Shown one piece after another: positions 3,960 to 23,246 of a stretch of 26,353 bases of DNA. The notes beneath the pieces were generated by a model, which was not told where the DNA came from, did no database searches, and saw only the letters and a list, made by a program, of their open reading frames with translations. Numbering within the stretch: position 1 is the first letter of the stretch; each line of letters opens with the position of its first letter. This stretch comes from a virus. A program made the position numbers and the translations under genes. The stretch lies in the IMG/VR virus record IMGVR_UViG_3300046328_001044, positions 1 through 26,353 of that record; one strand, 5' to 3'.

Positions 3960-3961
3960 TA

Positions 3962-4276: not shown

Positions 4277-4341
4277 TATTTGCATTTGCAAATGTGCCAG
4301 CCTTGTTATTCCTGTATTAGGACAACATAACAAAGTGCTTT

Positions 4342-4376: not shown

Positions 4377-7187
4377 CGTAATTACATTTACTCTTTTCCC
4401 TGCGGTTTCGATGTCGCTGTAAACTATTGATACAGATAGTTTTTCCTGCCAATTATTCATATCCGAGCGAAGTGCGGAAACCTCGGAAATCAAGTGTTCT
4501 ATCATCCCGCCGTTTTCGGAAGTTGAGGCGTTGGGTAAATTCACCGATGGCGTTGTATTTATGTTTGTTAAGCCTCCTCTTGCGAAATAAGCATCACCAC
4601 GACCATTCATAGCATTGATATTGCTTAATTGGCGCAGCATCGGCGCATTGTGTCTGTTTATGATTGCAAATCCTTCATCTTTCTCTACCTCAAAGGAACT
4701 GCCATCACTCGCCACGACTTGTGTGCCACCATGCGCGTGGTATTTGCCACCAAAGAACCCGAATTTACCACGTGCGAACTTTGTCCCTTCTACCTTTTTG
4801 ATCGCAATCAAAGCCCTTGCCGTTGCAGCACCGGCTTGAATACCGGCAAGTATATTACCTGCGATTGGGCCTAGTAATTGAGCAACTGGAGACTTCTGTG
4901 CATTGGCGAAAATACTAGAGACCTCACTTACCAGGTTGATGGTAATGTTCGCTTTTTGAAGTTCTTTGATGGTTGCGGCGTGCTTCTTTTTGCTGGCTTC
5001 GTCCCTTCCTAGTATCTCCGCAGCGACTGTAAAAATATCTGAAGTAGTTTTTAATCCAGTCTGGAGTACTTCCGTCCTTAGTGCCTCCAATGCGCGCTCA
5101 TTTTCTAAACGCTGCTTCCCAATCGTTGCCTCAACCTTTAATTTTTCATCCTCGCGGCGTTTTATCTCATCAACCTGTGGATTAGTACCCTCTTTCAATA
5201 TGGCGATTTCCTGTGCAAGAAAATCGCGTTTCATCTGGAGCCGCTGCATTTCATACTGCTGCTCTACTGCGATGGTCTTTACTAACTTGTTTTTTACCGC
5301 ATCAATTTGAACCTGCTGGCCAATCTCATCAACTGCCAGTGCCTGTAACTTTTGATTGGTAGGGGCTTGGTCGCTTGTTACCGGGCCTAATTGCCTTTGC
5401 GCTAAAGGCGACAATACGGCTACTCCTTTTCGCGAATTATCGGCCTGCATTTGAGCCAATTCATTCTGCAACTTTAGAGCCTCAATGGACTGATCCTTCG
5501 CGTATTTTTTGTAAATTAAAAGGCTCTGCTCTAGTTGCTCCTTCTTGATGGCCACCAGTTCATTACCATACTGGACTTCATTCTTGGTGTTGGCCAATCT
5601 CTCGCCCTCCAGTATAGTTTCTTTCCGGAGCGTTGCGGCTTCTAAACCTTTCAGTTCTAATTCTAAAGCCTCCTTTGATTCTTTTTGAATTTGTTCCTTA
5701 GATTTCTTTGAGTTGGCCTTGATGATAGCAAATTGTGCATCATAGCCGCCACCGAACGCAGATGCAAGCCCTTTGCCTTCTCCGGTTGCCGCAGCCTTGT
5801 CAGCAGGGGCAATTTCGGGCTGTGGGCTTTTTACGCTTTTCCAGCCATCCACAACGCCTTGGGCTAAGTTAATGCCCACTCCAACCGGGTTAAGGTTTTC
5901 AAAAGCCGATCCAAAAGAAGATGCCGCCTTTGAAAATTCGCCACTGAAAAGGTTTACAAATCCATCGGCTACCGCACCAATCCCTTTGACTACGCCGCTG
6001 ATCGCGCTGGCAACCCCGCCAAACGCGGCTGAAACGACCGCTCTAAAGTTCTCCGCTCCCTGTATCAAATTGTAAATAGATGTGCCAAAGTTGACGATCC
6101 ATTCTACCACAGGAATGATGGCTCCCAATACTTTATTAAAGACAGGAATCATTCCAGTGCCAAGGCCATCCACGATTTCGGAAATACGAGCGCGGAGACG
6201 TGCCTTTTTCTCTTGCAAATCATCTACGCCTTTACTGAAGGCGTTATTCGCATTCGATGATTGCTTGGTGATCTGCTCGAGCGTGATCAAGGCTTCGGCT
6301 TGTCGACGTTCATCTCCAGTAAGTTTTTCCAAGCCCTTGCGCTTTAATTCTGCCTGAATGATGCTGTCTTTTACATCAATACCCAGTGAATTTAGCGCGT
6401 CGCGTTCACCTAGCAATGCCTTATTAAGGATTTCAGTGGCGGTTTTAGTGTCCACTTTCCCTTTAGTCCATCGAGACAACACACCTGCCTGGTTCACCAA
6501 CTCAATACTGAGTTCAGCCGCCGTTTTTTGGGTGAAACCCATTGGTGTTAAAAGATCGGCTACGTCGGTGGCCAGCCCTCTATATTCCCTGCGGCTTAGT
6601 CCAATTGCTGCGGAATTCTTTTCTGCAAAATCATTTACAATAGAAATACTTTCGCCAAATACAGCAGCCATTTTTGTTTTCAAGGCTTCTGCATCCACAC
6701 CAATGTCAAATACTTTTTTTAGCCCCTCCAGCAAACTACTTAATCCTACTACGGCTAATGCAATAGGCCCCAACGCTGACAGAAAACCTTTCGCTCCAGT
6801 ACTCATGGCCTCCCAAACTCCTTTCGCGTCGCTAAGCCCTCTGTTTTCAGAACGAATTGCCGAAATTTGAGCATTAACGGCTTTCAATTCTTGGGATAGA
6901 ATTTTATACTGAGGAGCCGATTGAGGTATAAGCCGAATAGTCTGCTCTAACTGTTTGGCTCGTTCGTTCAGTTGCGCTGGAGCCACCTTGGTTAAGTCGA
7001 TTTTACCTAATCCTGCGGCGGAATTAACGATCTTATTGATTGATCCAGAAAGATCATCACCTTTCTTCTTTGCCTCATTTAACTCTTTGATAAACTGCTT
7101 GTTTTGAGTCACCAGTTTAGCATACTCACGACTTTCGTCCGTTAAAAAAGCAATGCTTATTTGTACTTTATCCTTTGATACTGACAT
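4359..7187 (-). CDS. Tail tape-measure protein
   Basis: Protein of 942 residues that sets tail length and is ejected with DNA. The N-terminus (1-120) is helical and charged. Hydrophobic segments at about 131-160 (FLSALGPIALAVVGLSSLLEGL) and about 343-372 (VFNKVLGAIIPVVEWIVNFGTSIYNLI) fit membrane-active regions of tape measures. Long Gln/Lys/Glu coiled-coil helices run from about 490 to 720. A late Ala-rich hydrophobic region is followed by a Gly-rich FARGKFGFFGGKYHAHGG segment and FARGG near the C-terminus, often seen in this family. The ATG lies 20 bases inside the previous gene. It is the longest gene in the window, as expected. The hydrophobic regions could in principle belong to another minor tail protein, but length and context make that unlikely. 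Confidence 0.92.
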   Translation of the reverse strand: MSVSKDKVQISIAFLTDESREYAKLVTQNKQFIKELNEAKKKGDDLSGSINKIVNSAAGLGKIDLTKVAPAQLNERAKQLEQTIRLIPQSAPQYKILSQELKAVNAQISAIRSENRGLSDAKGVWEAMSTGAKGFLSALGPIALAVVGLSSLLEGLKKVFDIGVDAEALKTKMAAVFGESISIVNDFAEKNSAAIGLSRREYRGLATDVADLLTPMGFTQKTAAELSIELVNQAGVLSRWTKGKVDTKTATEILNKALLGERDALNSLGIDVKDSIIQAELKRKGLEKLTGDERRQAEALITLEQITKQSSNANNAFSKGVDDLQEKKARLRARISEIVDGLGTGMIPVFNKVLGAIIPVVEWIVNFGTSIYNLIQGAENFRAVVSAAFGGVASAISGVVKGIGAVADGFVNLFSGEFSKAASSFGSAFENLNPVGVGINLAQGVVDGWKSVKSPQPEIAPADKAAATGEGKGLASAFGGGYDAQFAIIKANSKKSKEQIQKESKEALELELKGLEAATLRKETILEGERLANTKNEVQYGNELVAIKKEQLEQSLLIYKKYAKDQSIEALKLQNELAQMQADNSRKGVAVLSPLAQRQLGPVTSDQAPTNQKLQALAVDEIGQQVQIDAVKNKLVKTIAVEQQYEMQRLQMKRDFLAQEIAILKEGTNPQVDEIKRREDEKLKVEATIGKQRLENERALEALRTEVLQTGLKTTSDIFTVAAEILGRDEASKKKHAATIKELQKANITINLVSEVSSIFANAQKSPVAQLLGPIAGNILAGIQAGAATARALIAIKKVEGTKFARGKFGFFGGKYHAHGGTQVVASDGSSFEVEKDEGFAIINRHNAPMLRQLSNINAMNGRGDAYFARGGLTNINTTPSVNLPNASTSENGGMIEHLISEVSALRSDMNNWQEKLSVSIVYSDIETAGKRVNVITNQAGF

Positions 7188-8153: not shown

Positions 8154-8998
8154 TTTAAACCCCAGTTTGGTGAACTCATTTTTATTCTCATTTCCTCGTC
8201 AATGGCTTCCTTTCGCTGCTTTACGAGGAACATGCAAATGGTGTGGAAATTAGTTTTGTATATTTTGTCCAGGTTGGTAATGTTTCCGGCAAGTTCAAAG
8301 TACTTGCCCCACCACCCGAACATGGTACCTTCTTTGGCCTGTTGCTGTGATTCGGATTCTTCATCGTTGTCAAAAAGATATTTGCCATATACCCTGTTAA
8401 TCAATTCTTTGACCCCGATGAAATAGTAAGCGACAAGCAACATTATCTCCGGCTCTAATTTTTTGAGTTTTAAAGCCCTTGCCTCTGCTTCACTCCTCGA
8501 ATTGAGCAGAGTGCGAACGTCACCAGTTTTTGTGATCTCCTCACTATTCTTATTTTGTTCGCGGCAAAGCGTTGCAACCAGTTTTGTGAGTTCTGTTTCG
8601 CTACCGGTATTAATCCACTTTTTACAGTAGTCATCTGCTAGGGCAAACTCCAGAGCAGATCCGTTGCCAAAATTATCTGAAGGGAGAAAATAGTACTGGC
8701 CATTGACCTCGAATGATGAGATTGGCTGGATCGCAGTAGTGGTGATCTTTGCCCAGTTCAGTTTTTGCGATATGGCCGATAAATCATCTAGGCTCATGCC
8801 CGCCAGTACTGATGGCGGCACATCTAAAAAATACTGAAGCACAGCGATCTTCCGCAATTCTTCATCGTCTCCAGCCGCCAATATGATTTGTATTAAATGC
8901 AACAGGCGCGCATGCTGCACCTCTCTGAAAGAGGAGGGCAATGCGCGCCTGTAGATTCGGCCAAACCATCTTCCTGTAGTGATGGTAATTTCTATCAT
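8150..8998 (-). CDS. Uncharacterised tail-assembly region protein
   Basis: Protein of 282 residues, soluble and mostly helical. The N-terminus (residues 1-95) has LIQIILAAGDDEELRKIAVLQYFLDVPPSVLAGMSLDDL. The centre includes a Glu/Lys-rich helix (about 165-185). The end reads GTMFGWWGKYFELAGN...NFHTICMFLVKQRKEAIDEEMRIKM. I do not recognise a named domain. Tail-assembly chaperones usually sit a short distance upstream of the tape measure, so this could be the chaperone equivalent. I found no slippery-sequence frameshift product that would support that. It ends in an ATGA overlap with the next gene. Confidence 0.75.
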   Translation of the reverse strand: MIEITITTGRWFGRIYRRALPSSFREVQHARLLHLIQIILAAGDDEELRKIAVLQYFLDVPPSVLAGMSLDDLSAISQKLNWAKITTTAIQPISSFEVNGQYYFLPSDNFGNGSALEFALADDYCKKWINTGSETELTKLVATLCREQNKNSEEITKTGDVRTLLNSRSEAEARALKLKKLEPEIMLLVAYYFIGVKELINRVYGKYLFDNDEESESQQQAKEGTMFGWWGKYFELAGNITNLDKIYKTNFHTICMFLVKQRKEAIDEEMRIKMSSPNWGLK

Positions 8999-9000
8999 TG

Positions 9001-9543
9001 CTACGTTGCGGAGGCTGGTGCCGTAGGTGGTTTCTTTTTAATCAAACCTACGATCATTTTAAACAAATTATAGACTATGCCTGAATAAGCAACGCCGGGC
9101 AATACAAACCCCATAATTGTTGAAAAGAAATGTTCCGTTAGTGCCTCGCCCTTAAACAAAAGAAGTGTAATAAGGGCTAATGAACCTACGACGGCTGATG
9201 TGAATGCCTTGCCTCCTTTTTTCGCAGCAATATTTCGCAGTCCGGGAATGAATGCCCCTAATGCGGAGATCAGTGCAAGTAGCGCAGCCTTGAGTGCTCC
9301 AATAAAACCTTCAGTAAAAAAACTATCGGGGCTGGAGTAGTCAACGGTTACAGCCGGACTGGATTCTAAAACAACCGTGTTGGGCGTTGGATCAACAGGC
9401 TGTACCTGTACCAATGCGTGCTGTGGGACGGCTGGAGTCTCAACCTTAGTGGCACCAGTTCGTGCTTTTACATCCTGAGCATAAGTATCGTTGCTAAAGC
9501 AAGCGAACAATGCGAGGAGCATGAGGATAAAGTAATTCTTCAT
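9001..9543 (-). CDS. Membrane protein with Sec signal peptide, unknown role
   Basis: Protein of 180 residues. Residues 1-22 form a Sec signal peptide (Lys, then a Leu/Phe-rich core) with a likely cut at YAQDV. A Pro/Val-rich linker follows (about 30-68). Three hydrophobic segments then occur at about 78-98, 115-132 and 143-168, ending in a basic KKKPPTAP tail. It sits in the head-tail gene block between the tail-tube candidate and neck proteins, an odd place for a secreted membrane protein. A holin-like or superinfection-exclusion role would fit the topology. Neither is shown by the sequence. Confidence 0.8.
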   Translation of the reverse strand: MKNYFILMLLALFACFSNDTYAQDVKARTGATKVETPAVPQHALVQVQPVDPTPNTVVLESSPAVTVDYSSPDSFFTEGFIGALKAALLALISALGAFIPGLRNIAAKKGGKAFTSAVVGSLALITLLLFKGEALTEHFFSTIMGFVLPGVAYSGIVYNLFKMIVGLIKKKPPTAPASAT

Positions 9544-9573
9544 TGTTATTACGAAATTAAAATGAGTGACAAA

Positions 9574-9735
9574 CTATGCGTGTTGTAAAACCTTTTTACG
9601 AACCCGCGTTGATTCTTTTTGTACAACCGTTTGAAGGATTGGCTCTTGTTCAGGTTTTACTTTCGGTTGTAAACCTTTTTGGCCAAAATTGGCAATTTTA
9701 TCTACTAATTCCTTGCGGATATTATCCTTATTCAT
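9574..9735 (-). CDS. Small basic protein, 53 residues
   Basis: A 54-codon reading frame begins with ATG at 9735, nine bases after the previous gene, and ends with TAG at 9574. It translates as MNKDNIRKELVDKI... with a helical N-terminus (1-20), a Pro/Gln/Lys/Glu middle (PKVKPEQEPIL) and a very basic end TRVRKKVLQHA. The upstream TAAATAAAAATAACC is A-rich like other starts here. The tight fit between neighbours and a sensible composition support a real gene. No function can be assigned; it is not a membrane protein. Confidence 0.65.
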   Translation of the reverse strand: MNKDNIRKELVDKIANFGQKGLQPKVKPEQEPILQTVVQKESTRVRKKVLQHA

Positions 9736-9743
9736 GGTTATTT

Positions 9744-9956
9744 TTATTTAAAAAGGTGATCGCTAATTTTTTCGAGACCTTCACTTACCCCATACAGTGC
9801 CTTTATGTTGTCTTCATTCATTGCTATTACCTTTTTAAAAAGGTACACTACAGCACCAGACAGGGCTATAACTGCCGAGATGATAGCAAAAATAAGTAGG
9901 CGAAGAATAGGGTTATTTATTGCCTCGTATGTATTATCAATGAGATCAGGTTGCAT
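9744..9956 (-). CDS. Small single-span membrane protein, 70 residues
   Basis: The frame can be read from a TTG at 10001, but that would overlap the previous gene by 44 bases. The ATG at 9956 comes directly after the previous stop (TAATATG) and is the better start, giving 70 residues. Residues 17-42 are hydrophobic (ILRLLIFAIISAVIALSGAVVYLF) followed by KK, so an N-out or N-in single span is likely, with a charged amphipathic C-terminal helix. Size and topology resemble class III holins or small phage membrane proteins, but position within the tail genes gives no support for lysis. Confidence 0.7.
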   Translation of the reverse strand: MQPDLIDNTYEAINNPILRLLIFAIISAVIALSGAVVYLFKKVIAMNEDNIKALYGVSEGLEKISDHLFK

Positions 9957-9957
9957 A

Positions 9958-10164
9958 TTAAGGATTATTTTGAGTGGGTATCTCTTCCCACCAGTCAACA
10001 AATTGTGGATGCTGTTTTAAAAAGGCAGCCCGTTCTTTATCATTGTATAATTTGGGGAAGTAAAAAACAGAATGGATTTTAATCCCATTTTTATAATCGG
10101 GGCCTATGTATCGAAATTTGGGAGCAGTAGTCTTTACTGCTCCCTTTTTTGATGTATCCTTCAT
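9958..10164 (-). CDS. Small basic protein, 68 residues
   Basis: The frame opens at a GTG at 10194, but the ATG at 10164 starts two bases after the previous stop and is preferred. The protein begins with a Lys-rich MKDTSKKGAVKTTAPKF stretch followed by IGPDYKNGIKIHSVFYFPKLYNDKERAAFLKQHPQFVDWWEEI. It looks soluble and folded only in its second half. It lies between the probable tail-tube gene and a small membrane protein gene. I do not recognise it; a structural accessory role is possible. Confidence 0.65.
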   Translation of the reverse strand: MKDTSKKGAVKTTAPKFRYIGPDYKNGIKIHSVFYFPKLYNDKERAAFLKQHPQFVDWWEEIPTQNNP

Positions 10165-10166
10165 CG

Positions 10167-10694
10167 TTAATTTACGATTGCGCCAGTATACCACAATGGA
10201 GGATTCTTAGAGGCCCACTTGATTGTGACTTCGTAGCCGTTTTTTGGGCTAGTGGTTTCTTTTACCATCACTTCGCAACCATTCACCTTATCGCCAACGA
10301 TTCGGTTAGCCTCTCCATTAAAGTCTTCAACCAACGCAATGTAATTATTGCCATTGATGCCCGACATGGTGTGAGAAGTACTTGCTTTCAGTTTCTCTAC
10401 AAAACCCTTAATCTCGGTATTCCAAAGGCCGTTTTCATCCTTTTCAGAAGTGAAAGCGTTCTCTTTCATTGTGATTGGCCACTGTCGGAAACGACCTGCT
10501 GGTATTGCGGGTGGCCCCGTTACTGCGGTGCGCATCGTGATATTGGTTGACACCTGCAAACTTCCTGTTGTCGGAGCAGGAATGGCATCAACCTCATCAA
10601 TGCAGGTAATATTGATGAGCGGCGTAAGGCCCGGTGCGTTGGTTTCCCCACCGCAAAGGCGTTCTATGTCGTCGATTGTGCAAATGCAATCCAT
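10167..10694 (-). CDS. Probable major tail tube protein
   Basis: Protein of 175 residues with beta-rich composition. The N-terminus carries CICTIDDIERLCGG and then CIDEVDAIPAPTTG. The body has alternating strands (STNITMRTAVTGPPAIPAGRFRQWPITMKENAF, NNYIALVEDFNGEANRIVGD) and ends EVTIKWASKNPPLWY. Beta-rich proteins of this size between the major capsid protein and the tape measure are usually the tail tube, which would polymerise around the tape measure. The four Cys residues at the N-terminus (C4, C6, C14, C31) are unusual for a tube protein. A minor head decoration protein is the main alternative. Confidence 0.6.
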   Translation of the reverse strand: MDCICTIDDIERLCGGETNAPGLTPLINITCIDEVDAIPAPTTGSLQVSTNITMRTAVTGPPAIPAGRFRQWPITMKENAFTSEKDENGLWNTEIKGFVEKLKASTSHTMSGINGNNYIALVEDFNGEANRIVGDKVNGCEVMVKETTSPKNGYEVTIKWASKNPPLWYTGAIVN

Positions 10695-10729
10695 TTTTAT
10701 AAAAAAAAAATAAGTGGTTAAAAAATAAA

Positions 10730-11104
10730 TTACTTCTCTACGAGCAGTTTAGAGCCTTCTTTAGCCAACTTGGTAAGAAGTTCTTTGTCTGCCAATAGGG
10801 ATTCCTCATTGTACTCAACGCCTTCGTAAGAGAAGGATGGGAATTTGAGGGTGTAGGTTTTGCCCGCAACTTTAAATTCCGTGCCTTTCAGCCTTTCAGG
10901 TTGTGTTGCAGGGGACTTTGCCTTTTCTTCTTTTGCCGCAATCATCTCCTCCAGTACGGCTTCTAGGCTTTCTATGCGTGCGGCTTGATCAGCCAATAGG
11001 TCCTGCAATTGGTTTAGACCTGCACCCAATTCCGTTAGTCCTGGTACTTGTGGAGTATCCTGATCTTGATTGGGGCTTTCAGGCAATGCTTCCTTACCTT
11101 TCAT
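10730..11104 (-). CDS. Small coiled-coil protein following the capsid gene
   Basis: Protein of 124 residues with a Pro/Gln/Asp-rich N-terminus (1-20), a coiled coil at about 25-62 (LGAGLNQLQDLLADQAARIESLEAVLEEMIAAKEEK) and a small C-terminal domain (about 72-124) starting FKVAGKTYTLKFPSFSYEGVEYN. The place directly after the major capsid gene is typical for head-completion or decoration proteins. Nothing diagnostic is seen, so function stays open. Confidence 0.7.
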   Translation of the reverse strand: MKGKEALPESPNQDQDTPQVPGLTELGAGLNQLQDLLADQAARIESLEAVLEEMIAAKEEKAKSPATQPERLKGTEFKVAGKTYTLKFPSFSYEGVEYNEESLLADKELLTKLAKEGSKLLVEK

Positions 11105-11171
11105 TGTATTGATTGAATTAGTATTTGATAAAATAAGATTAGCATGCTGCTGCTCATGCCAATCCAGTTAA

Positions 11172-12161
11172 TTACAGTTGATCGTTGACCAACAAGAAGC
11201 CCGGCTTTTTGAGCAGGATTTGTACGCCTACAGGGAACTTGTTGAGCATGTGCGTAAACCATCCCTGATCCTGCATCTTCCATTCGCCCATTTCACCTTC
11301 AACGTTGAAGCCAAAGGCTAAGAACTCAGGACGTGTGCCGATAAGGGCATCATCGTCACCGAATCCGGCAACTGCGACAAGGAATGTCTTTTTGCCACCA
11401 AGCGTGATCGGAATGCCGGAGAACGTGTACTGAGCACGCTGTACATCCTGTAGTGGAATTTCGCGGCCTTGATGCGTTGCTGCATAGTTTTCGAGGTAAT
11501 CCTCAAAGAGCGTATAAGAGCAATAGATGTTAAAGCCCATCTGCTTCATTGTCTTGTCGGCTGCGCGGTAGAACTGGTTCACCTTGGCTACCGCATTTGA
11601 TACGGTAATCGCTCCCGTTGCTACTACGGTGGCCTTACCTGCAACACCTGCATCCAAGGCAATCTTACGGTATCCGTCGAAGCGTGCTGCAAATTTGCGC
11701 AAACCGATATTCGCTGGAGTGGTATCTTCCACAGCTTGCCATACACCGTCTTCAAGTTCCGACATCATTTTTTTGATCGCCGGATCATTGAGGTATTCAA
11801 GGAAGTGCATGTCGTCCATGGACAGACCTGCGCCTTTCAAGTATGCTTTATAGGCTTTTACTTTGCGTGCGTTCAGTTCGCAACGCAACTCTACTTTGAA
11901 GTCGTAGGTTTTGATGCGTACATCGGTGATGTCGATTGCGTCATCGGTAGCTGTGAAGTTCAGGGTGGGATTGTACTCATAGATCAAGTCTTTGATTACG
12001 TCCATCTGAGCGAGAACCATTGTTTCGTCGATACCCGGAAACTTGGTTACATGCCCTGCGGTCTCAAAACCGAGGAACATTTTTTCGATAACTTCGCGAC
12101 CTTGTTTGGTGAGAAACTCATCCACCAGTGCCGAAGGTGATACGTTTAATACGTCTGACAT
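11172..12161 (-). CDS. Major capsid protein
   Basis: Protein of 329 residues that would build the icosahedral head. It follows a protease gene and a coiled-coil scaffold candidate, the standard protease-scaffold-capsid order. The sequence has features seen in HK97-fold capsid proteins: a charged helical N-terminus, a spine-like region about residues 95-140, a middle domain with YRKIALDAGVAGKATVVATGAITVSNAVAKVNQFYRAA, and a C-terminal beta part ending WFTHMLNKFPVGVQILLKKPGFLLVND. No fold-specific signature can be proved by eye, so the assignment rests mostly on order and size. Adenine/thymine-rich bases (TTAAAAA) precede the ATG. Confidence 0.8.
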   Translation of the reverse strand: MSDVLNVSPSALVDEFLTKQGREVIEKMFLGFETAGHVTKFPGIDETMVLAQMDVIKDLIYEYNPTLNFTATDDAIDITDVRIKTYDFKVELRCELNARKVKAYKAYLKGAGLSMDDMHFLEYLNDPAIKKMMSELEDGVWQAVEDTTPANIGLRKFAARFDGYRKIALDAGVAGKATVVATGAITVSNAVAKVNQFYRAADKTMKQMGFNIYCSYTLFEDYLENYAATHQGREIPLQDVQRAQYTFSGIPITLGGKKTFLVAVAGFGDDDALIGTRPEFLAFGFNVEGEMGEWKMQDQGWFTHMLNKFPVGVQILLKKPGFLLVNDQL

Positions 12162-12195
12162 TTTTTAATAGTAATTATTGATAGTGAATAAGTGA

Positions 12196-12603
12196 TTATA
12201 GGTTATTAGCCTCCTCTTTAAATTTCTCCCAGATTGGCATGTCAGTAGTTTTTTTGCCTTCTTGACCACCTTCGCCGCTTTTAATCTTTGTATGCTCTGC
12301 CTTCATTTTTTCCAACTCGTTAATACGGTTTTGCGCTTCAGTATTCTTTTTCTGCTCTGCATCTAAAGCCGATTTATTACTTTGCAAATCAGCAGTCAGT
12401 TTGTCAAACTGAGACTGGAGTGCTTCGATAGTGGCTTTGTTTTCGGATTCGAGTTGGTTTTTAATCTCCGATCGTACATTTTCTCTGTACGCATTGAGAT
12501 CGGTTACCTTCTCCATTTCTGCATGGATTTCGCTTTCGGTTGCTTCCTCGTTAAGTGAGAACCAGCCGCGAAGGGTGTTAAGGATTTGATCAGTCCATTT
12601 CAT
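12196..12603 (-). CDS. Probable scaffold protein
   Basis: Protein of 135 residues, strongly helical, with a long coiled coil at about 40-105 rich in Glu, Lys, Gln and Asn (SEIKNQLESENKATIEALQSQFDKLTADLQ) and a Gly-rich break (SGEGGQEGKK) before a short C-terminal helix WEKFKEEANN. Such coiled-coil proteins between the head protease and the capsid gene are usually scaffolds that guide capsid assembly and are then cleaved. The C-terminal helix would be the capsid-binding part by analogy. Confidence 0.7.
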   Translation of the reverse strand: MKWTDQILNTLRGWFSLNEEATESEIHAEMEKVTDLNAYRENVRSEIKNQLESENKATIEALQSQFDKLTADLQSNKSALDAEQKKNTEAQNRINELEKMKAEHTKIKSGEGGQEGKKTTDMPIWEKFKEEANNL

Positions 12604-12623
12604 TGATAAAAATGATTTGTTTG

Positions 12624-13526
12624 TTATGAATTATTGCGGCGTTTGATATTCGCCTCTAATCGAGACATTGCATATCCTAGCGTGCCAACGCCGTCTATAA
12701 GGCCCCGTTTCTTTGCATCTTGAGCAAAGAACATTCCTCCTCGAAGGGTAGTCTCTTTGTCGTAGTTTAAGGGCCGGTATTTCGTTACTTCCTGCTGGAA
12801 GAGTTTTGCATTCTGCGTTACAATCGTTTGTAGCGGTTTAGTATCGCCCTTCAAATAAGCACGCCACTCTGCATTCTTATCATCGCTTACTTCGGAGTAA
12901 ATATCATCGACGTTTTCACTGTACCACTTTGCGATTTCTTTGTCCACCGATACATAAGTGCCAATGGATCCTACGCGGGTGGCTTGGCCGCTCGCGATAA
13001 TTTCGTCGCTGGCCAGTGTGCCGTGGATGCCCGCACTGGCTAATGTGTCGGCGTAAACCACTACCGCTTTTTTACTCTCTTTGATTGCGTTGTGAAGTAT
13101 TTGTCCGGCTAGGCTTTCTCCTCCTCCAGTATTTGCCCGGATAAAAATGCCTGAGATATTCGGGTGGCCATTGGCCATCATAATGGCTTGTTCAAACTCA
13201 TCCATGCCCCATGTACACATATCTCCGTTGGCCATCATAGGCCCCAAGAGATTGAGTTGCAAAATTGAATTGGGAGGGATATTTCCGCTGTTTCGAGGAT
13301 TCATTACTTCCCATACGCCTACTGTTGCGCCTTTCATATCCAGAACAACAGGCCCATTTATAGACTTTAATCGTTCAAATACTGCTACGGTAGATGGCGA
13401 AGATGAAGCAATTTCTATGTTAGACAAGTACTTGTTGAGGTACTGTGTCGCGAATCCTTGCTCTATGTGCCAGCGTAAAGGATCGCCCGAAAGGATGTTA
13501 TCTATATGTGCATTCCGCTTAAACAT
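12624..13526 (-). CDS. Prohead protease, S49/SppA-like
   Basis: Protein of 300 residues with a ClpP/crotonase-type serine protease core. The motif IRANTGGGESLAG (about 129-141) is the usual oxyanion-side segment, LASAGIHG carries the likely nucleophile Ser164, and VGSIGTYVS (185-193) matches the S49 signature following it. Lys217, 53 residues after Ser164, sits where the S49 family places its general base, so a Ser-Lys dyad is likely. It would mature the prohead by cutting scaffold and capsid N-termini. The ATG lies four bases after a CAATTTTG box and just downstream of a terminator, so this gene starts a new transcript. Confidence 0.87.
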   Translation of the reverse strand: MFKRNAHIDNILSGDPLRWHIEQGFATQYLNKYLSNIEIASSSPSTVAVFERLKSINGPVVLDMKGATVGVWEVMNPRNSGNIPPNSILQLNLLGPMMANGDMCTWGMDEFEQAIMMANGHPNISGIFIRANTGGGESLAGQILHNAIKESKKAVVVYADTLASAGIHGTLASDEIIASGQATRVGSIGTYVSVDKEIAKWYSENVDDIYSEVSDDKNAEWRAYLKGDTKPLQTIVTQNAKLFQQEVTKYRPLNYDKETTLRGGMFFAQDAKKRGLIDGVGTLGYAMSRLEANIKRRNNS

Positions 13527-13530
13527 TGGG

Positions 13531-13567
13531 CAAAATTGTAGGCGTGTGTAACGTACATATAGGACAA
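13531..13567 (-). promoter_or_regulatory. Putative promoter for the head module
   Basis: On the minus strand TTGTCCTATATG is followed by 17 bases and CAATTTTG, which ends four bases before the protease ATG. The element fits the Bacteroidota -33/-7 layout (-7 consensus TAnnTTTG) with C for T at the first -7 position. The same layout recurs upstream of the genes starting at 18510 and 23246. Confidence 0.5.
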
Positions 13568-13568
13568 T

Positions 13569-13603
13569 AAAAATGCCCGTAACGACTTACGTCATTACGG
13601 GCA
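13569..13603 (-). terminator. Intrinsic terminator between appendage and head modules
   Basis: TGCCCGTAA at 13574-13582 pairs with 13595-13603 (nine base pairs), with a further three-pair extension after one mismatch and a TTAC loop. On the minus strand the GC-rich stem runs straight into TTTTTATTG, a good U-tract. It lies 17 bases after the end of the membrane-protein gene at 13621 and just upstream of the protease promoter. Confidence 0.85.
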
Positions 13604-13620
13604 AAAACATGGGTAATTCT

Positions 13621-14214
13621 TTATACTGTGGAATAGATTACGCTCGCAATAATAGAAATGATTGCGAGCGTAAGTCGGATGTTGTGCGTTATCCGAGGTA
13701 TCTTTAATCCTAGAGATGGCAGACCGTAATATTTCCCCTCTGGATCATCGGTGCCTTCGTAGTTCCAATCCTGATTATTCAATAGGTTTATCATTGTTTT
13801 TTGTGCAATGACGGATGGATAAACGGCCAATACTGCGCAGACTAAAGAATCCAATCCGGCAATAATAAATGCCGATCCTAGTAATGATTGCTCCAGCAAT
13901 GTCCAGAGGTGTATATCCGTAGTGTATTTGTAATGCAGAAAACGAAACTTATAATTCAATGCTAGAAATACGCTTGCTATACATCCACAACTGGCCAGCA
14001 GAATACCATACTTCATCAGTTGATCCGGTATAAAATACCAGCCTTGTTGATCGAGTAGTATCCGCATGATAAATAAGGTAATGGCTGACATGCCTAAAGC
14101 AATGATGATAGGGTGTTCGCTTTCTACTTTATTGTTGTACATCATGCCGTTTCGGACACCGCTTAGGAAGCGGTGTAGGATGAAGTAGATGAATAGGATT
14201 GAAAATGTTGGCAT
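13621..14214 (-). CDS. Multi-pass membrane protein, unknown role
   Basis: A GTG at 14238 could start the frame inside the previous gene, but the ATG at 14214 lies five bases after that gene and is preferred, giving 197 residues. Hydrophobic segments appear at about residues 1-17, 35-52, 65-87, 104-130 and 175-195 (LTLAIISIIASVIY), so about five spans. A loop with NNQDWNYEGTDDPEGKYYG lies at about 143-160. No family is recognised. It is the last gene before the terminator, following secreted proteins, and may act at the inner membrane with them. Confidence 0.75.
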   Translation of the reverse strand: MPTFSILFIYFILHRFLSGVRNGMMYNNKVESEHPIIIALGMSAITLFIMRILLDQQGWYFIPDQLMKYGILLASCGCIASVFLALNYKFRFLHYKYTTDIHLWTLLEQSLLGSAFIIAGLDSLVCAVLAVYPSVIAQKTMINLLNNQDWNYEGTDDPEGKYYGLPSLGLKIPRITHNIRLTLAIISIIASVIYSTV

Positions 14215-14219
14215 GGGTG

Positions 14220-14951
14220 TTATTTGCTTTGTTCCCACTTTTTCTTGCGAGAGTTGTACTTCATTATTGTGCCGGAGATGGTTACTGTGCCGTCAGGGTT
14301 TAGTTTCGGTGGTAGCATTTCTTCGGATTCTGTAGGGGGTGGAGCAATCGAATTCCGGCTACTACTATTATCGCTTACTGGTCGCAATTCATATTGATTA
14401 TTTATATTCCGATAACGCTGATTGTTGCCTGTTTTAAACAGATCGGTTGTGTATCCGTTCAGGTTATTCAGTCGAATAACACTTCTTAGATAAGTCATTT
14501 CACGCCACGTTGCAGAAGTATCTGCACGGTATTGGAAATTAGAAGCAGTTCGTCGGAAGCGGATTGGAGTTCCGTTTAGTTGCCAGTACCCTGTTAGATA
14601 TAAAGTTGGGTCTTTTTTAGCAAAACTGTCTAATGGATTTCTTCCTATTACGTTTTGTATATTTCGGTAATAGCGTGCCATTTCAGTAATACGCTTACGG
14701 AGTTGGCTGGCGGATTCTGCTAACGCTGCATATTGTAATGCCTCCGCTTCGGCTTTAGCACTTAATACTTGCATAGATATTGTTGTATCGCCTATTTTGT
14801 AAGTCGTAATCGTTTCCATGCCGTTGCCGAAAACTTGCAAACGAGACTCGTAAAAAAGCCCCGCGCGGTTGAATATCCAACTACTGTCTATTTCCTGTGC
14901 CGAAGCCGTAAAAAAGGCAAAAAAGGCAATTAAAAAAAGTATATTTTTCAT
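14220..14951 (-). CDS. Secreted protein with Sec signal peptide, unknown
   Basis: Protein of 243 residues. Residues 1-18 form a Sec signal peptide (MKNILFLIAFFAFFTASA) with a cut before Gln, typical of Bacteroidota. The mature part begins with a beta-like region (about 20-58), then an Ala/Glu/Arg helix (about 62-100), then a mixed region with YLTGYWQLNGTPIRFRRTASNFQYRADTSATWREM, a Ser/Pro-rich linker (about 193-208), and an end KLNPDGTVTISGTIMKYNSRKKKWEQ. It follows three other signal-peptide proteins, with its ATG one base after the preceding gene. It could be an appendage component or a periplasmic partner of the fibre-like proteins. Confidence 0.8.
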   Translation of the reverse strand: MKNILFLIAFFAFFTASAQEIDSSWIFNRAGLFYESRLQVFGNGMETITTYKIGDTTISMQVLSAKAEAEALQYAALAESASQLRKRITEMARYYRNIQNVIGRNPLDSFAKKDPTLYLTGYWQLNGTPIRFRRTASNFQYRADTSATWREMTYLRSVIRLNNLNGYTTDLFKTGNNQRYRNINNQYELRPVSDNSSSRNSIAPPPTESEEMLPPKLNPDGTVTISGTIMKYNSRKKKWEQSK

Positions 14952-14952
14952 A

Positions 14953-16290
14953 TTATTTTATATTTATCACTGTGCCGATTCTTTGTATGAGATAAATTTT
15001 GGCTGGAGCAGCAATACCGCTACCACCTGCGCCGCTGACTAATGTCGTAGGATTAAGAGCCGTATCCGTGTCTATCCCTAACGTGTACCCGCTTGCGGCT
15101 GAGAACGTTATTGCGTTAGTTGAGTTTCTTGTACATCTAACTAAATAAGGTTTCCCTTCTACTAGCGATGCGCCTAACGTAATTGTAAATGCGCCTGCAT
15201 TAGCATCGCACCTAATATTATAGTTCTCCCCGCCCGGAGTTGTATTAGAGGTAAGCAATAATAAAGCGTTTACGGGCTTATCTGTTAATATTTTAACCGT
15301 ATTTGCGGCTCCCGCATCCTCTTGAAAAAAGAGGGCTTGGGAGTTAGATGAATAAAAAATACTGCCTGCTGGTGGCGTAGAAGGTGGCCCCGTGGGTGTA
15401 TCATCTAATTGGATATAACCAGTATTGTTGATAGTTATGCCGTAGGAATTTGCCTTGATGCGCATTGTATTCGCATCGTTCGTCCCTAATATAGCGGCGG
15501 CGGCGAAGGAATTGCCGCCTTGCACAAACGTATTGGTTGCAGGGGTTACTGATAAGACTCCAGACGACATGGATAAGTTTGCCCCTAATGTGACGTTCGT
15601 TATATTGTTAGAGACATCTCTTCCTGTAATCGTTGTTGCGGTTGACCCGCTCGCATCGACTCGAGCAAGACCATTCACATGAAACGTGCTAAGAGGGTTT
15701 GATGTATTTACGCCAAGGTTTCCGCTACCATCGCTACCTTTTACAAAGATTGCAGGGGCGGTATTCCCACCCGTTTTAAAGATAATGTTTCCGCTTGCAG
15801 CGTTTGCGGATCCAGCAATGTTTGTGTTGAAAATTATCCCGGTAGTTGATCCTAATGTATTAGTTACAAGATAATCAGCAATTGAGGAATTTGCATAGTT
15901 AGGAGCAAAGTAATCTACGTTACCAACACCAGACCCCACAGCATTTATGAAAGAAAGTCCATTTATTGCGAAAGAACCTGAATTTGTGTTTTGAATAATT
16001 AATCCCCTAGAGAACAGGTTATCATTGTACGTTAATTTTAACTGTTGCGATGTATTAGTTAAAATACTATTTACTAAATTTTTACTAGAAGAAAATTTTG
16101 GAATAGCATCAACCGATCCAGTGCCTGTAATATCGCCGAGATTGCTCGGCACATATTCGGTACCATTCCAAATTAAACCCTGCCCTGTTGTCGCGCCAAA
16201 TTGCCCTATTTGCCCCGGATGTATCTTCGGCTCTACCACCTGCCCAAAAACCAAAACAGGCAGCAACAAAAATAAAAGTAAACTCCTCAT
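14953..16290 (-). CDS. Fibre-like secreted protein with Sec signal peptide
   Basis: Protein of 445 residues. Residues 1-16 are a Leu-rich signal peptide with a cut at FG-Q, and the mature N-terminus QVVEPKIHPGQIG resembles that of the next upstream protein. A WNGTEYVPS motif lies at 41-49 and GTGSVDAIPKFSSSKNLVNSIL near 56-77, both common in Bacteroidota fibre and adhesin proteins. The rest is Gly/Ser/Thr/Asn-rich and beta-like, as in phage tail fibres and repeat adhesins, with a C-terminal domain from about 330. ATG and the previous stop overlap as TAATG. A receptor-binding role is likely by composition and place; the signal peptide is unexpected for a virion protein. Confidence 0.8.
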   Translation of the reverse strand: MRSLLLFLLLPVLVFGQVVEPKIHPGQIGQFGATTGQGLIWNGTEYVPSNLGDITGTGSVDAIPKFSSSKNLVNSILTNTSQQLKLTYNDNLFSRGLIIQNTNSGSFAINGLSFINAVGSGVGNVDYFAPNYANSSIADYLVTNTLGSTTGIIFNTNIAGSANAASGNIIFKTGGNTAPAIFVKGSDGSGNLGVNTSNPLSTFHVNGLARVDASGSTATTITGRDVSNNITNVTLGANLSMSSGVLSVTPATNTFVQGGNSFAAAAILGTNDANTMRIKANSYGITINNTGYIQLDDTPTGPPSTPPAGSIFYSSNSQALFFQEDAGAANTVKILTDKPVNALLLLTSNTTPGGENYNIRCDANAGAFTITLGASLVEGKPYLVRCTRNSTNAITFSAASGYTLGIDTDTALNPTTLVSGAGGSGIAAPAKIYLIQRIGTVINIK

Positions 16291-17177
16291 TACTGTAATG
16301 GATATTTAAAGGTTACAACTTCGCCCGTCGCTAAAACCCGAGGGAAAGTAAGTGTGCCGCCTGATCGAGTAACATTACAACCCGAACACCCGCCCGCGCC
16401 GACAACGTGCCTTACCCCATTTCTATACACCCAAATCTTGCTGTTTTCTGCTGGTAATGTCCCCGACATTGTAGCAGTTGTTTGCCCTGAGGTAAACGTA
16501 GCAGTCGCTTCTACAAATAAATCTTCTACATTAACAGTACCACCCGATAGCGAAAGTGTAACGACGTTATTTGTCGCGACGTTTCGGCTTACTGATTGTA
16601 TTTCGTTTGTTGTAGATCCGTCCACCTCTGTCCCGGTTATAGTTATTGTTGTACCGGAGGTTGTCGGTACATTTATGCCGCCACCTGCGATAGTGAATGC
16701 ACCACCACCGTTCGATAGCGTTACGGTGTTCGTTGCGGTTGCAATCGTTTGTAGTTCATTAGTATTACTTAGATCGCCCGTGTTAGAAATAGTTACACCC
16801 GTTATATCTATGCCCGTTCCTGCGGTGTAAGTCGTTCCTGCATCGGGCTGTAAAGACCAGGCTGTGCCGTTCCATTTATATACTTGCCCGGCTGATGTAC
16901 CATTCGCGATCATCGCTGGTGTAACAACTCCATTTGCGATGACGGTTGCATTTGCCGCACCCGTAACGTTGCCCGAAAGGGTGATGTTCGGAACTAATGC
17001 CGCAGCAAGCGCGGCGCGAGTGATGTGCGTGTGAATAGTTGCGCCCGTTGCAACGGTAGGAATATCACCCACGCCTGCGCCATACGCGCCGATGGTTGCG
17101 ACGGGAATAAGCGGCTCAACGGGCTGTGCCAAAAGAGCCAAAGGCAACATTAAAATAATCGAAATTAAGAATCTCAT
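16290..17177 (-). CDS. Fibre-like secreted protein with CxxC C-terminal domain
   Basis: Protein of 295 residues with a signal peptide (1-17, cut at LA-Q) and mature N-terminus QPVEPLIPVATIG. The body is Thr/Ala/Gly/Asn-rich and repetitive, with KWNGTAW at 101-107 and paired SNTNELQTIATATN and GSTTNEIQSVSRNVATNN units. The last 50 residues (IWVYRNGVRHVVG...FPRVLATGEVVTFKY) form a small beta domain of a kind seen at fibre ends, but with CSGC at 264-267. The upstream neighbour ends in a similar domain with CSDC. The start overlaps that neighbour as ATGA. Likely an appendage or adhesin; the disulphide idea is inference. Confidence 0.8.
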   Translation of the reverse strand: MRFLISIILMLPLALLAQPVEPLIPVATIGAYGAGVGDIPTVATGATIHTHITRAALAAALVPNITLSGNVTGAANATVIANGVVTPAMIANGTSAGQVYKWNGTAWSLQPDAGTTYTAGTGIDITGVTISNTGDLSNTNELQTIATATNTVTLSNGGGAFTIAGGGINVPTTSGTTITITGTEVDGSTTNEIQSVSRNVATNNVVTLSLSGGTVNVEDLFVEATATFTSGQTTATMSGTLPAENSKIWVYRNGVRHVVGAGGCSGCNVTRSGGTLTFPRVLATGEVVTFKYPLQ

Positions 17178-17713
17178 TGTATGATTTGTAATTGAATTGT
17201 TTCCTGCGCGATAACCGCGCGGGAAAGGGTGAAAATTTGTGTTGTACTATTATATGAAACCTGACAATCAGAGCAGTTTGAAAGCCCTACTTTGTAAAGT
17301 TGTCCATTTCTTGTTACTCTCATATTGTCAATTGAAATACCTGTAAGCGAACCGAATGCGGTAAAATTTGCGCTTCCGATTGTTGTTGTAACCGTTCTGT
17401 ATTGCCATGCTCCAGCGTCGGTTGATGGTACCCAATTTGTTCCATTCCATTTTATTGTTTGCCCGGTGGTTGGAGTGCCTGTAACACTAATATATCCCTG
17501 TGCTATAATGAAATCATATACGGCCTTTGCTGTAGTGCCTTGACGATGCGTGGCAGCATTGGTGATTATAGTAGCAATCGTTGTCCAATATTTTGATGTA
17601 TCAACGCCTACACGAAGCCGCTTAAGCGCAATAATGTGATCCTGCTGCGTTACCGTTTGCGCACAAACGACCTGTGCAAATAATAAAAAGAAAAGTGTTC
17701 TTACAAAAGACAT
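17174..17713 (-). CDS. Short fibre-like secreted protein with CxxC C-terminal domain
   Basis: Protein of 179 residues with a signal peptide (1-18, cut at CA-Q). A helical segment follows (about 24-72, HIIALKRLRVGVDTSKYWTTIATIITNAA...AVYDFIIAQGYI), then TGQTIKWNGTNWVPSTDAG at about 83-101, and a C-terminal domain (about 128-179) with MRVTRNGQLYKVG, CSDC at 147-150, and ALIAQET-like ending. This is the shortest of three consecutive related proteins. The ATG lies 13 bases inside the previous gene. The fibre-type composition suggests a tail-appendage part, with the same unexplained Sec signal. Confidence 0.8.
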   Translation of the reverse strand: MSFVRTLFFLLFAQVVCAQTVTQQDHIIALKRLRVGVDTSKYWTTIATIITNAATHRQGTTAKAVYDFIIAQGYISVTGTPTTGQTIKWNGTNWVPSTDAGAWQYRTVTTTIGSANFTAFGSLTGISIDNMRVTRNGQLYKVGLSNCSDCQVSYNSTTQIFTLSRAVIAQETIQLQIIQ

Positions 17714-18551: not shown

Positions 18552-19310
18552 TTAATTAAACCTACTGCTATAAAATGCCTCGTTTATGAGGGTTCGGATG
18601 TAAGTATCGGAGTTTATCCACGCTTCGATTGATTTCACAGCGCGGCTTACAGAGGTCTGGCTACAGCCCACAATGCAGGAAATGCGCCGCATTGAATAGT
18701 GAGCGCATTTGTATAACAAATAATATTGTAACTGTCTGGGGAAATACACTGGCACTTTGCCACGTGCGGCATTGAGTTGGTTGATTATTTCATTCATTTT
18801 AAGGTAGATCACGGTGTCGGATTCCCTGATCTCCACAGTTCGCTCCCGTTTTGCAGCATGCAAAGGTTCTGAAACCGATAAAGCCCTTTTTTCTTTTCGC
18901 TTTGCGGAATAATCCGTCCAGCGGCGATAGGCTGACTCGGAAGAGTAATCGTACTCGTCTATGCCGTGCTTTGCATAGAAACGACGGATGGCTTCGCGAG
19001 CAGGTACGTTCATGCTGACCATGACCTCAACAAACCGAAGCATTACTTCGCGGTGGTAATTGAAAAGGGCGATTCCTATGTTTGAGTTTTTAAGGCAAAC
19101 AAACCTTGCTAGGTCGTCGTGGACGGTGATGGTGATCGTTTCCGATAACCACTCCAGTGTGCGGGGCTGATACCCTCGTGAGTTAAAACGAATCGTGCGG
19201 AGTTGATCTTGAATCAATTCATTGCGATCAAAGCGGAGTGGCTCTTGGCCGTATTCGCTAAGGAGGATTCTTTTACTTAATGGTGTAATTCGAAACGTAA
19301 GTGTTGTCAT
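18552..19310 (-). CDS. DNA-binding protein with DnaA domain IV-like helix-turn-helix
   Basis: Protein of 252 residues. The C-terminal 55 residues (YYLLYKCAHYSMRRISCIVGCSQTSVSRAVKSIEAW, about 195-231) have the helix-turn-helix layout of DnaA domain IV and related regulators: an initial helix, a short loop with RRIS, a recognition helix SQTSVSRAVKSIE. The N-terminal 150 residues are basic and helical, with no AAA+ ATPase motifs, so it is not a full DnaA. It lies alone between tail-tip and fibre genes with its own upstream promoter-like element and a small inverted repeat. It could switch on the downstream late genes, or bind phage origin repeats. The family call is by pattern and not certain. 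Confidence 0.7.
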   Translation of the reverse strand: MTTLTFRITPLSKRILLSEYGQEPLRFDRNELIQDQLRTIRFNSRGYQPRTLEWLSETITITVHDDLARFVCLKNSNIGIALFNYHREVMLRFVEVMVSMNVPAREAIRRFYAKHGIDEYDYSSESAYRRWTDYSAKRKEKRALSVSEPLHAAKRERTVEIRESDTVIYLKMNEIINQLNAARGKVPVYFPRQLQYYLLYKCAHYSMRRISCIVGCSQTSVSRAVKSIEAWINSDTYIRTLINEAFYSSRFN

Positions 19311-21104: not shown

Positions 21105-22648
21105 ACATTAAATGCGGTATTGATCCACGCCGATTTGATCTCCACGGTGATTTGAAAAACAGTATCATCCTCTACGATTTGCCCGAATTGTGTGTTTTCG
21201 ATAATCACACGAAGGAAGCGTTTATTTTGCTTATCAATGAGCCAGCATGCGCCGTGTAGTATCTGCTTTAGGTGGTTGAGATATACAAGATCGGAGTAGT
21301 ACCCAGTTGAGACTGTGATGACTTCGCGTGATTCCGAGAATAATACATCTATGTCGCCTACGGTTGCGGTATTATTTGTGGCTTTGCGCCATTTTTCATT
21401 GGTTACTTCTACGTTTACGGTAGGTGCTCCGTGTAGCCATACCGATTCCATACCGCCCACTCCATTTTCCATCAACAAGAATACTGTGCCGGCTGTGGGC
21501 AAGTGTTCTACTTGATACATCACTGAGCCAATGAGCGTAAGCCCCTGCTCCAGACGCACCTCATAGGAATCTATAAGGGCATCTGGGCTGGTGCCTGAAG
21601 GCGGGGCAATATTATGCAAAAACAATTGTCGGAAACCTGACTTTACCCAGTTTATCTTATTGGGGATAAAGGTTCTTTGTGTAGGGCCAAAAGGGTTATA
21701 TAGGCTTTCGGTACCGTCGCTCCACTCAATCCTTACTGTTAAAAGATATTGGTCTCCATCAAGCGTTTCCAATATGGGTAAGAAATACAGCCAATCAGGT
21801 TGATCGGGTGATAATGGCTTGCTAAACTGTGATCCCTGCGCTGTAATATAATTATGCCTGAGTATGTCATCAGCAGCAACATAAAGAGATGTCTTTGCGG
21901 TGCCACCTAATATGGCATACAATTGATCCGACTTTACCATTGCCTCTGCTACTGGAGGTGTACCAAATCGATCTGCGTACCTGAAATAATACGCCTGTAC
22001 GTGTGTTTCTGCTACTCCAGCCTGCCAAGTTGGCGTGGTGGGTTCTATTGTAGCAGACAAGGGCAATTCAGCCATTGAGTTGGTGAAACTAGGCGATATA
22101 TTGAGTTCACATTCACCTGTTAATTCATTGTATGTGGCGTGGTGTTTCATCAGCAATACATTATCTGAAGTATATACCGATACCAACGCCGCTAAATTAT
22201 CTGGAGTGGTAATAGTTGTTACGGAGGTGGCTGTAACGGCTACTCCAGAGAGCGTTTCGGTAACAACCAAAGCGCATACTCCAGACTGATTGCGGGTGAT
22301 TCTTATGACCTGATTACTAGCCGAAGGCGGTAAGAGGCTAATATTAAAATCATCGGTGAGTGGCTCGTATTGCCTTAGAAATTCTACGATTAACTCAGCG
22401 TATTCTGCCAGTGTGCCGCCGCTTTGGACTGGCCATGAGAGGCCATTGGCTGCGGTGGTGGCTGCTACGGTGAACGTTACTTCGCTACCGGGCCACTCTA
22501 GTTTGACGGTTTGGCCTGTGGTGGGTGATGCAGATATTTCGAGGTTAAAATAAGCCGTAGCATCATCTATTTTATCGGTACTTAAACCGACAATAATCCC
22601 ATCGTTGATGAACGAGAAGTTATTAGGCGTTTGGGTTAAGGTAGCCAT
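21101..22648 (-). CDS. Large beta-rich minor tail protein
   Basis: Protein of 515 residues, soluble, Thr/Ser/Val-rich and mostly beta-like. Residues 25-110 read as a repeated carbohydrate-binding or fibronectin-like region (FNLEISASPTTGQTVKLEWPGSEVTFTVAATT). The middle has DRFGTPPVAEAMVKSDQLYAIL and an acidic/aromatic section around 275-345; the end is SAWINTAFNV. No named domain is recognised. It overlaps the amidase by 26 bases and the next tail-tip gene by four, so all three are probably made together. A virion tail protein is the likely class. Confidence 0.7.
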   Translation of the reverse strand: MATLTQTPNNFSFINDGIIVGLSTDKIDDATAYFNLEISASPTTGQTVKLEWPGSEVTFTVAATTAANGLSWPVQSGGTLAEYAELIVEFLRQYEPLTDDFNISLLPPSASNQVIRITRNQSGVCALVVTETLSGVAVTATSVTTITTPDNLAALVSVYTSDNVLLMKHHATYNELTGECELNISPSFTNSMAELPLSATIEPTTPTWQAGVAETHVQAYYFRYADRFGTPPVAEAMVKSDQLYAILGGTAKTSLYVAADDILRHNYITAQGSQFSKPLSPDQPDWLYFLPILETLDGDQYLLTVRIEWSDGTESLYNPFGPTQRTFIPNKINWVKSGFRQLFLHNIAPPSGTSPDALIDSYEVRLEQGLTLIGSVMYQVEHLPTAGTVFLLMENGVGGMESVWLHGAPTVNVEVTNEKWRKATNNTATVGDIDVLFSESREVITVSTGYYSDLVYLNHLKQILHGACWLIDKQNKRFLRVIIENTQFGQIVEDDTVFQITVEIKSAWINTAFNV

Positions 22649-23246
22649 GGACTAGGGTTTTGAATTTTTCGTAAGGGAATCCCGGATGTGTATCCGTTTT
22701 ATCGGCGCGCACATTGTGGTGTGCATATACGGTAGATTGATGCGGTATTTTTATGTCAAACTTGCCGAATTCGGCAAAGGTGACAGGCATTTTATATTGC
22801 TGTATGAGCCTAGCAACCAACTGAGCACAGGCATCTACTTGCTCCTCCGGGTAAACTGGCCAATGCGATCCATTGCGCCAAGGTGCTTCGATGGTTTGAC
22901 CTGTAAAAATAGGGCCGTTGGGATGTAGCCAACGCTTCCCATCTTTTTGTGGAAATAGAAAACCCTCGTTGACCAATTCTATCCCAATGGAACGGCGATT
23001 AAAATCCAAATTGGATGGATGCCGAAGCCCCAAATGATGCGCCCAAAAACGGTTATCAAAACACTGGATAATAGTGCCATCTTTGGCGATGACGTATGCC
23101 GTGCCAATACGCTCAGGCTGCATTGACCACCATTTCAAGGGACTTTGCGCAGTACTACTCACCGTATGATGGAGTACTATATTTTTTTTAGGGAAAACCT
23201 GCCGGAAGTATTGCGTAGCGGCGAGGTGTTGTTCTACGATCTTCAT
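22623..23246 (-). CDS. N-acetylmuramoyl-L-alanine amidase endolysin (Amidase_2 type)
   Basis: Cleaves the amide bond between MurNAc and L-alanine in peptidoglycan. The 207-residue protein has LHHT with zinc ligand His26, a substrate-side GTAYVIAKDGTI (48-59), SIGIELVNEG with Glu90, and YAHHNVRADKTDTHPGF where His176/His177 and Asp185 complete the zinc site and Lys183 fits the catalytic Lys. No signal peptide is present, so it needs a holin or tail delivery to reach the wall; small membrane proteins elsewhere in the window are holin candidates. Its stop lies inside the next tail gene. The ATG follows CATTTTTG by four bases. Tail-linked use of the enzyme at infection is possible because it sits with tail-tip genes. 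Confidence 0.9.
   Translation of the reverse strand: MKIVEQHLAATQYFRQVFPKKNIVLHHTVSSTAQSPLKWWSMQPERIGTAYVIAKDGTIIQCFDNRFWAHHLGLRHPSNLDFNRRSIGIELVNEGFLFPQKDGKRWLHPNGPIFTGQTIEAPWRNGSHWPVYPEEQVDACAQLVARLIQQYKMPVTFAEFGKFDIKIPHQSTVYAHHNVRADKTDTHPGFPYEKFKTLVHGYLNPNA

Follow-up and report, generated by a model that had tools for sequence, protein, structure and literature searches.

Consecutive putative fibre genes of the exported type, two with a related C-terminal CxxC domain, in a probable Bacteroidota siphophage

Four consecutive genes (A, B, C, and D; Table 1) in the structural region of a tailed phage most likely form a cassette of exported fibre genes, as judged from their predicted signal peptides, with presence of the products in the virion proposed by analogy to Cellulophaga phages. 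The window (i.e., the whole stretch of 26,353 bases of a virus record that was analyzed here) is part of a siphophage, most likely of Bacteroidota, and its structural genes run leftward on the minus strand. Under our overall explanation, which we hold at a probability of approximately 0.5, A and B would open a run of four adjacent tail-fibre genes, and each product would carry a cleavable Sec signal peptide and be exported to the host periplasm, as suggested by sequence and by the MS/MS labels of similar genes. Each C-terminal β-sandwich may then be of the type by which fibres and tailspikes attach to the tail or to each other (a reading based on two shallow models), and the CxxC loop of this domain would form a local disulphide in the oxidising periplasm, by which the loop would be stiffened. 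The most economical scheme would be a relay, in which B is held at its N-terminus by the C-terminal domain of A, and C at its own N-terminus by that of B.

Table 1. Positions of the fibre genes, their predicted parts, and other phage genes in the window.
Feature	Positions	Strand	Basis or remark
Large terminase	38–1486		family match
Portal-type protein	2652–3959		family match
Tape measure protein	4359–7187		family match
Head maturation protease, S49 kind	12624–13526		family match
Protein D, 243 aa	14220–14951	−	Q-rule signal peptide TASA/QEI; no cysteine
Fibre protein C, 445 aa	14953–16290	−	Q-rule signal peptide LVFG/QVV; no CxxC domain
C, mature N-terminal motif QVVEPKIHPGQIGQFGATTG	16183–16242	−
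Putative inter-phage exchanged block, inside A through B to N-terminus of C	16201–17600	−	DNA identity
Fibre protein B, 295 aa	16290–17177	−	signal peptide, N-motif, KWNGT linker, repeat-like stretch of ~110 aa, C-terminal CxxC domain
B, C-terminal domain, 71 aa	16293–16505	−	model pLDDT 68.8
B, CSGC, residues 264–267	16377–16388	−
B, linker GQVYKWNGTAWSLQPDAG	16836–16889	−
B, mature N-terminal motif QPVEPLIPVATIGAYGAGVG, common to protein C	17067–17126	−	0 of 2000 shuffles
B, signal peptide, predicted cleavage ALLA/QPV (Q-rule)	17127–17177	−	home-made scan
Fibre protein A, 179 aa	17174–17713	−	signal peptide, variable N-terminal part, KWNGT linker, C-terminal CxxC domain
A, C-terminal domain, 77 aa	17177–17407	−	model pLDDT 73.2, seven strands
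A, CSDC, residues 147–150	17264–17275	−
A, linker GQTIKWNGTNWVPSTDAG, common fibre motif	17411–17464	−
A, signal peptide, predicted cleavage VVCA/QTV (Q-rule)	17660–17713	−	home-made scan
Endolysin	22623–23246		family match

The terminase and the S49 protease of the window presented 22–30% identity to those of phages of Polaribacter, Flavobacterium, Cellulophaga, and some other hosts; given these matches to Bacteroidota phages, the host of the phage is most likely a member of Bacteroidota. The four genes A to D are flanked by the tail genes on one side and by the head protease on the other (i.e., they occupy the fibre slot). A and B overlap by the ATGA at 17174–17177, and B and C by 1 nt at 16290.

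Signal peptidase I of Bacteroidota is described in PMC5837995 and PMC10653852 as exposing on most of its substrates an N-terminal glutamine, which is then cyclised; the word phage does not occur in PMC5837995. PMC6199706 states that phage DGR proteins are without signal peptides. We scanned for signal peptides of this type with a strict home-made rule, which is not SignalP and which calls for positive charge near the start, a hydrophobic stretch, and a small residue followed by Q (the Q-rule). The scan listed exactly four ORFs in the window, which are A, B, C, and D, consecutive in the fibre slot; its background was one of 5478 internal Met positions, and it listed no ORF in T7 and, in lambda, the Bor gene alone, whose annotation is that of an outer membrane protein. 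The homologue of A in one sister phage (L005, below) was not listed by the strict scan and has a signal-like N-terminus. A looser first heuristic, superseded by the strict scan, had been positive for 16 of 117 ORFs of the KWNGT type (a set with redundancy that includes the window's own loci), as compared to 45 of 440 ORFs of >200 aa. The original prediction that A and B are secreted thus agrees with their clean predicted signal peptides, each followed by Q, and both are of the exported type by sequence. Tailed-phage fibres normally assemble in the cytoplasm, which would fit a reading in which the hydrophobic N-termini serve fibre assembly or membrane targeting of intact cytoplasmic proteins, with the CxxC pair reduced as an inherited, neutral, or metal-binding loop. 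However, all four N-termini obey a host-specific rule, with Q at position +1, a pattern that is hard to explain except by selection for signal peptidase I, and we regard this reading as rather unlikely.

A link between such genes and virions comes from Cellulophaga phages, in which the stretches examined contain 17 CDS with the full experimental MS/MS label (eight in phi10:1, six in phi19:1, and three in phi18:3), a count that leaves out one phi19:1 tape-measure CDS cut by the edge of its stretch. Ten of the 17 presented Q-rule signal peptides (four in phi10:1, three in phi19:1, and three in phi18:3), and all ten are located in the fibre slot; the labels are those of the depositors, co-purified secreted proteins may be among the labelled products, and several of the ten are homologous to one another. 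One further MS/MS-labelled protein, gp104 of phi19:1, has a signal-like start without Q and was not listed by the strict scan; the other six labelled CDS, as well as four further CDS of phi10:1, showed no Q-rule signal peptide. Like the window, phi10:1 (gp091–094), phi19:1 (gp101–103), phi18:3 (gp085–087), and Cellulophaga phage Ingeline_1 (four genes at 24089–30497) have consecutive Q-rule fibre genes in the structural region. They differ from the window in that their fibre-slot proteins showed no convincing sequence match to A or B by tblastn and that the mature parts of these proteins are without CxxC. The MS/MS-labelled consecutive Q-rule genes lie at 11847–17391 of KC821618, 5117–9912 of KC821607, and 8794–14486 of KC821620. 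B40-8, P2559S, and the initial 30 kb of phiST gave no match to the Q-rule, and FCL-2 had one short ORF; not all Bacteroidota phages have Q-rule fibre genes.

Taken together, the Q-rule cassette of the window and its MS/MS-labelled counterparts make it most likely that A and B are parts of fibres and travel by way of the periplasm, a compartment in which a CxxC disulphide could form; our search of the literature, which had partial coverage, found no description of virion fibres with signal peptides in these phages. An alternative is that A to D are secreted or surface adhesins that alter the infected or lysogenic host and are not parts of the virion. The signal peptides on all four proteins would suit this alternative, as would five Q-rule genes reported in Porphyromonas gingivalis phages (PMC10367356), which are alike in being phage genes with Bacteroidota Q-rule signal peptides; that report gives their function as unknown and suggests that they act on the host envelope by modification of the outer membrane, and the likeness is by description only. 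Against it, genes A to D are embedded in the structural cluster, with tail genes on one side and head genes on the other, and Q-rule proteins in the same slot of three cultured phages are MS/MS-labelled as virion proteins, so that host-directed adhesins seem the less probable interpretation by some distance.

The ORFs of A and B, the residue numbers of their CxxC pairs, and the motif around them were reproduced as originally predicted, all on the minus strand. The two pairs were also correctly placed at equivalent positions, since the RNG-x4-VG-x3-CSxC spacing is identical in A and B and the pair falls in the same loop of both structural models. A shared C-terminal domain of approximately 50 residues had been proposed; the sharing held, while the length is actually 71–77 residues. 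The domains of A and B present ~31% identity, and 22 columns are invariant over the six domains of three phages. Their local alignment score of 67 was reached by none of 2000 shuffles of one partner, and with the cysteines masked, the score of 47 was reached by two of 2000 shuffles; because the masked score holds, the homology of the two domains is independent of the cysteines. At the DNA level, the two copies are 42% identical with saturated synonymous sites and are therefore related by an old event, either a duplication or a shared module; the description of the domain as duplicated stands with regard to homology and falls with regard to a recent tandem copy.

Profile-guided scans of IMG/VR identified only two sister phages with these domains, 3300042319_003448 (L004) and 3300042502_001517 (L005), each of which has copies of both A and B with a cysteine pair in every copy. 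Absence of the pair from close homologues had been set beforehand as an outcome that would count against the original prediction; the pair is kept in four of four further domains from both sister phages, a weak check because these domains are 90–95% identical to those of the window. The pair is thus conserved in sequence wherever the domain is known (i.e., in three phages). A DNA scan for the exact spacing gave 29 matches in 27 stretches, of which four lie in the domain (two in each sister) and 25 are chance matches by frame. A domain search of bacterial genome contigs found no relative; tblastn with A and B against annotated phage records gave chance-level rows only and nothing convincing; a sequence search of the PDB returned one chance row; and a regular-expression search for Cys-free relatives among the ORFs of the collected loci retrieved known B domains only. 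Similarly, relatives of gene D and of gene 17701 were found in the sister contigs only, and no relative of gene D was found in bacterial genome contigs. For both domains, comparison of the window with either sister gave dN of 0.04–0.05 and dS of 0.52–0.73, while dS was saturated in the four other genes compared. This low dN relative to dS across the domain indicates that purifying selection acts over the whole domain and that the cysteines are not singled out. The cysteine pair itself is a narrow, lineage-specific detail; its occurrence in exported-looking fibre proteins is of more interest.

Both domains were modelled from one common set of six sequences from three phages, and the two models are not independent because they were built on the same six sequences. 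Each was predicted as a β protein, with pTM of 0.58 for A and 0.49 for B, and the CxxC is in a loop between the same two strands (strands 36–39 and 50–53 in A, with Cys 45 and 48; strands 31–36 and 45–48 in B, with Cys 40 and 43). No Foldseek match reached an E-value of <1e-3 (best 0.033 for A in the PDB, and 0.47 in the PDB and 0.18 in BFVD for B); many of the best 50 BFVD matches of B bear the names of tail fibres, tailspikes, or depolymerases. With VIA-align, the A model matched 22 chains at Z ≥ 5, rows 1–21 all having titles that point to a tail or a phage (in row 19, simply a tube tail protein), and the first row outside phage tails had Z 4.9. The best match was TSP4 of CBA120 (7rfo, residues 265–331; Z 7.7, rmsd 1.7, 64 aligned residues, 16% identity), and the N-terminus of T7 gp17 (7boz) scored lower (Z 6.0, rmsd 2.9, 68 aligned, 13% identity); every Z is <8, a level that can reflect a mere common arrangement, so these matches are leads. 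For the B model, phage tail entries again came first (best Z 5.2), with immunoglobulin-type rows close behind at approximately Z 4. Pfam PF03906 (Phage_T7_tail) had no match in the window at E-values up to 10.

The domains of TSP4 and the T7 gp17 N-terminus attach fibres or tailspikes to the tail or join them with one another, and from this resemblance we read the domain of A and B as a putative docking domain. The earlier description as fibre-tip-like is therefore retained for the fibre part and not for the tip, since in these models of low to middling confidence the best likenesses are to docking and tail-anchoring domains. The predicted β-sandwich of the window's domain may have an arrangement similar to that of the two known ones; the domain differs from them in being C-terminal, in carrying CxxC, and in belonging to a protein with a signal peptide. 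The combination of an N-terminal Sec signal peptide and a C-terminal β domain, in a phage with a probable Bacteroidota host, is also what would be expected of cargo of the type IX secretion system (T9SS), with the β-sandwich as a sorting domain and the product released or surface-anchored by the host. No sorting domain of the Por_Secre_tail or CHU_C type was matched in Pfam or NCBIfam at E-values up to 10, however, and the predicted fold resembles phage tail domains, leaving T9SS cargo as a highly improbable explanation. A thioredoxin-like CxxC oxidoreductase was rejected, as both models are β proteins with the CxxC in a loop and not at the N-terminus of a helix.

The only cysteines of mature A are 147 and 150, the remaining Cys17 being located inside the signal peptide, and 264 and 267 are the sole cysteines of mature B. 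When a protein crosses the inner membrane and has just two cysteines, three apart in a loop, they are by default expected to form a local disulphide, and we consider that the CxxC pair probably does so; most of the remaining probability goes to a pair with no special role. Cysteine parity gave weak support to a disulphide: of 38 exported-type ORFs of these phages, 29 had an even number of cysteines, against an expectation of 22.5 (simulated p 0.02), and among the 21 ORFs with any cysteine the number was even in 12. Some of the 38 are not fibre ORFs, and at least one, with 10 cysteines, is an antisense ORF that is probably spurious. Binding of a metal or cofactor had also been suggested; we found no supporting ligand pattern, and metal is less likely because each chain has one CxxC and no other Cys, unless a trimer pools three pairs. 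In such a trimer, six cysteines would surround a metal ion at the threefold axis or close to it, and metal along a fibre axis is reportedly present in T4 gp37; with no further ligand residues identified, we judge this arrangement very unlikely. Protein C, which is without the domain, has just two mature cysteines (residues 361 and 386), 25 apart near its C-terminus.

Comparison of the window with L004 at the DNA level revealed a sharply bounded block of 71–94% identity, flanked by ~35–60% identity on either side up to gene D; in the comparison with L005, a similar block starts at approximately 17500. The block begins inside A ahead of its C-terminal domain, spans all of B, and ends ~30 codons into C, and it therefore holds, in register, the C-terminal domains of A and B together with the N-terminal motifs of B and C. 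In L005, in which the upstream genes are different, the N-terminal half of A differs and the rest of A is kept. Which parts are shared and which are exchanged together suggests that each C-terminal domain may dock the N-terminus of the next fibre protein. Such a relay, with the N-terminus of A itself fitting a particular tail, would explain both the block and the L005 pattern; plain exchange between conserved stretches, with no docking function, would also explain both.

The usual view of dsDNA tailed phages places both synthesis and joining of their fibres in the cytoplasm. The ten MS/MS-labelled Q-rule proteins and the same arrangement in the window make periplasmic finishing of the host-recognition apparatus directly testable. 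If it occurs, oxidative folding would be available to phage adhesins, with the paired CxxC domain as a concrete case, and a run of Q-rule signal peptides would be a practical sign of receptor-binding genes in unannotated Bacteroidota phages. A broader and more speculative proposal, which we consider doubtful at present, is that some Bacteroidota tailed phages build their adhesion apparatus outside the cytoplasm, with Sec-secreted fibres that would be cut so as to leave an N-terminal (pyro)glutamate, undergo oxidation in the periplasm, be joined head to tail by C-terminal docking domains locked by CxxC disulphides, and meet the virion only when the cell lyses.

Two other ORFs of the window and one further phage presented features of their own. 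Between the tail and fibre genes, positions 18552–19310 encode a protein of 252 aa in which a weak similarity to a helix-turn-helix (DnaA C-terminal-like) was noted, and L004 has a protein of similar size at 3856–4620. Between the tail genes, the ORF at 9001–9543 starts like a signal peptide (TYA, then QDV) and continues as a protein with a hydrophobic segment; it was missed by the strict scan and may encode a membrane or holin-type protein. Microcystis phage Mea-Yong924-1 (MZ447863) matches the window in its terminase, S49 protease, and a tail protein (20–27%) and has one gene with a Q-rule signal peptide (37136–37699); its stated host is cyanobacterial, and its true host may be a Bacteroidota companion.
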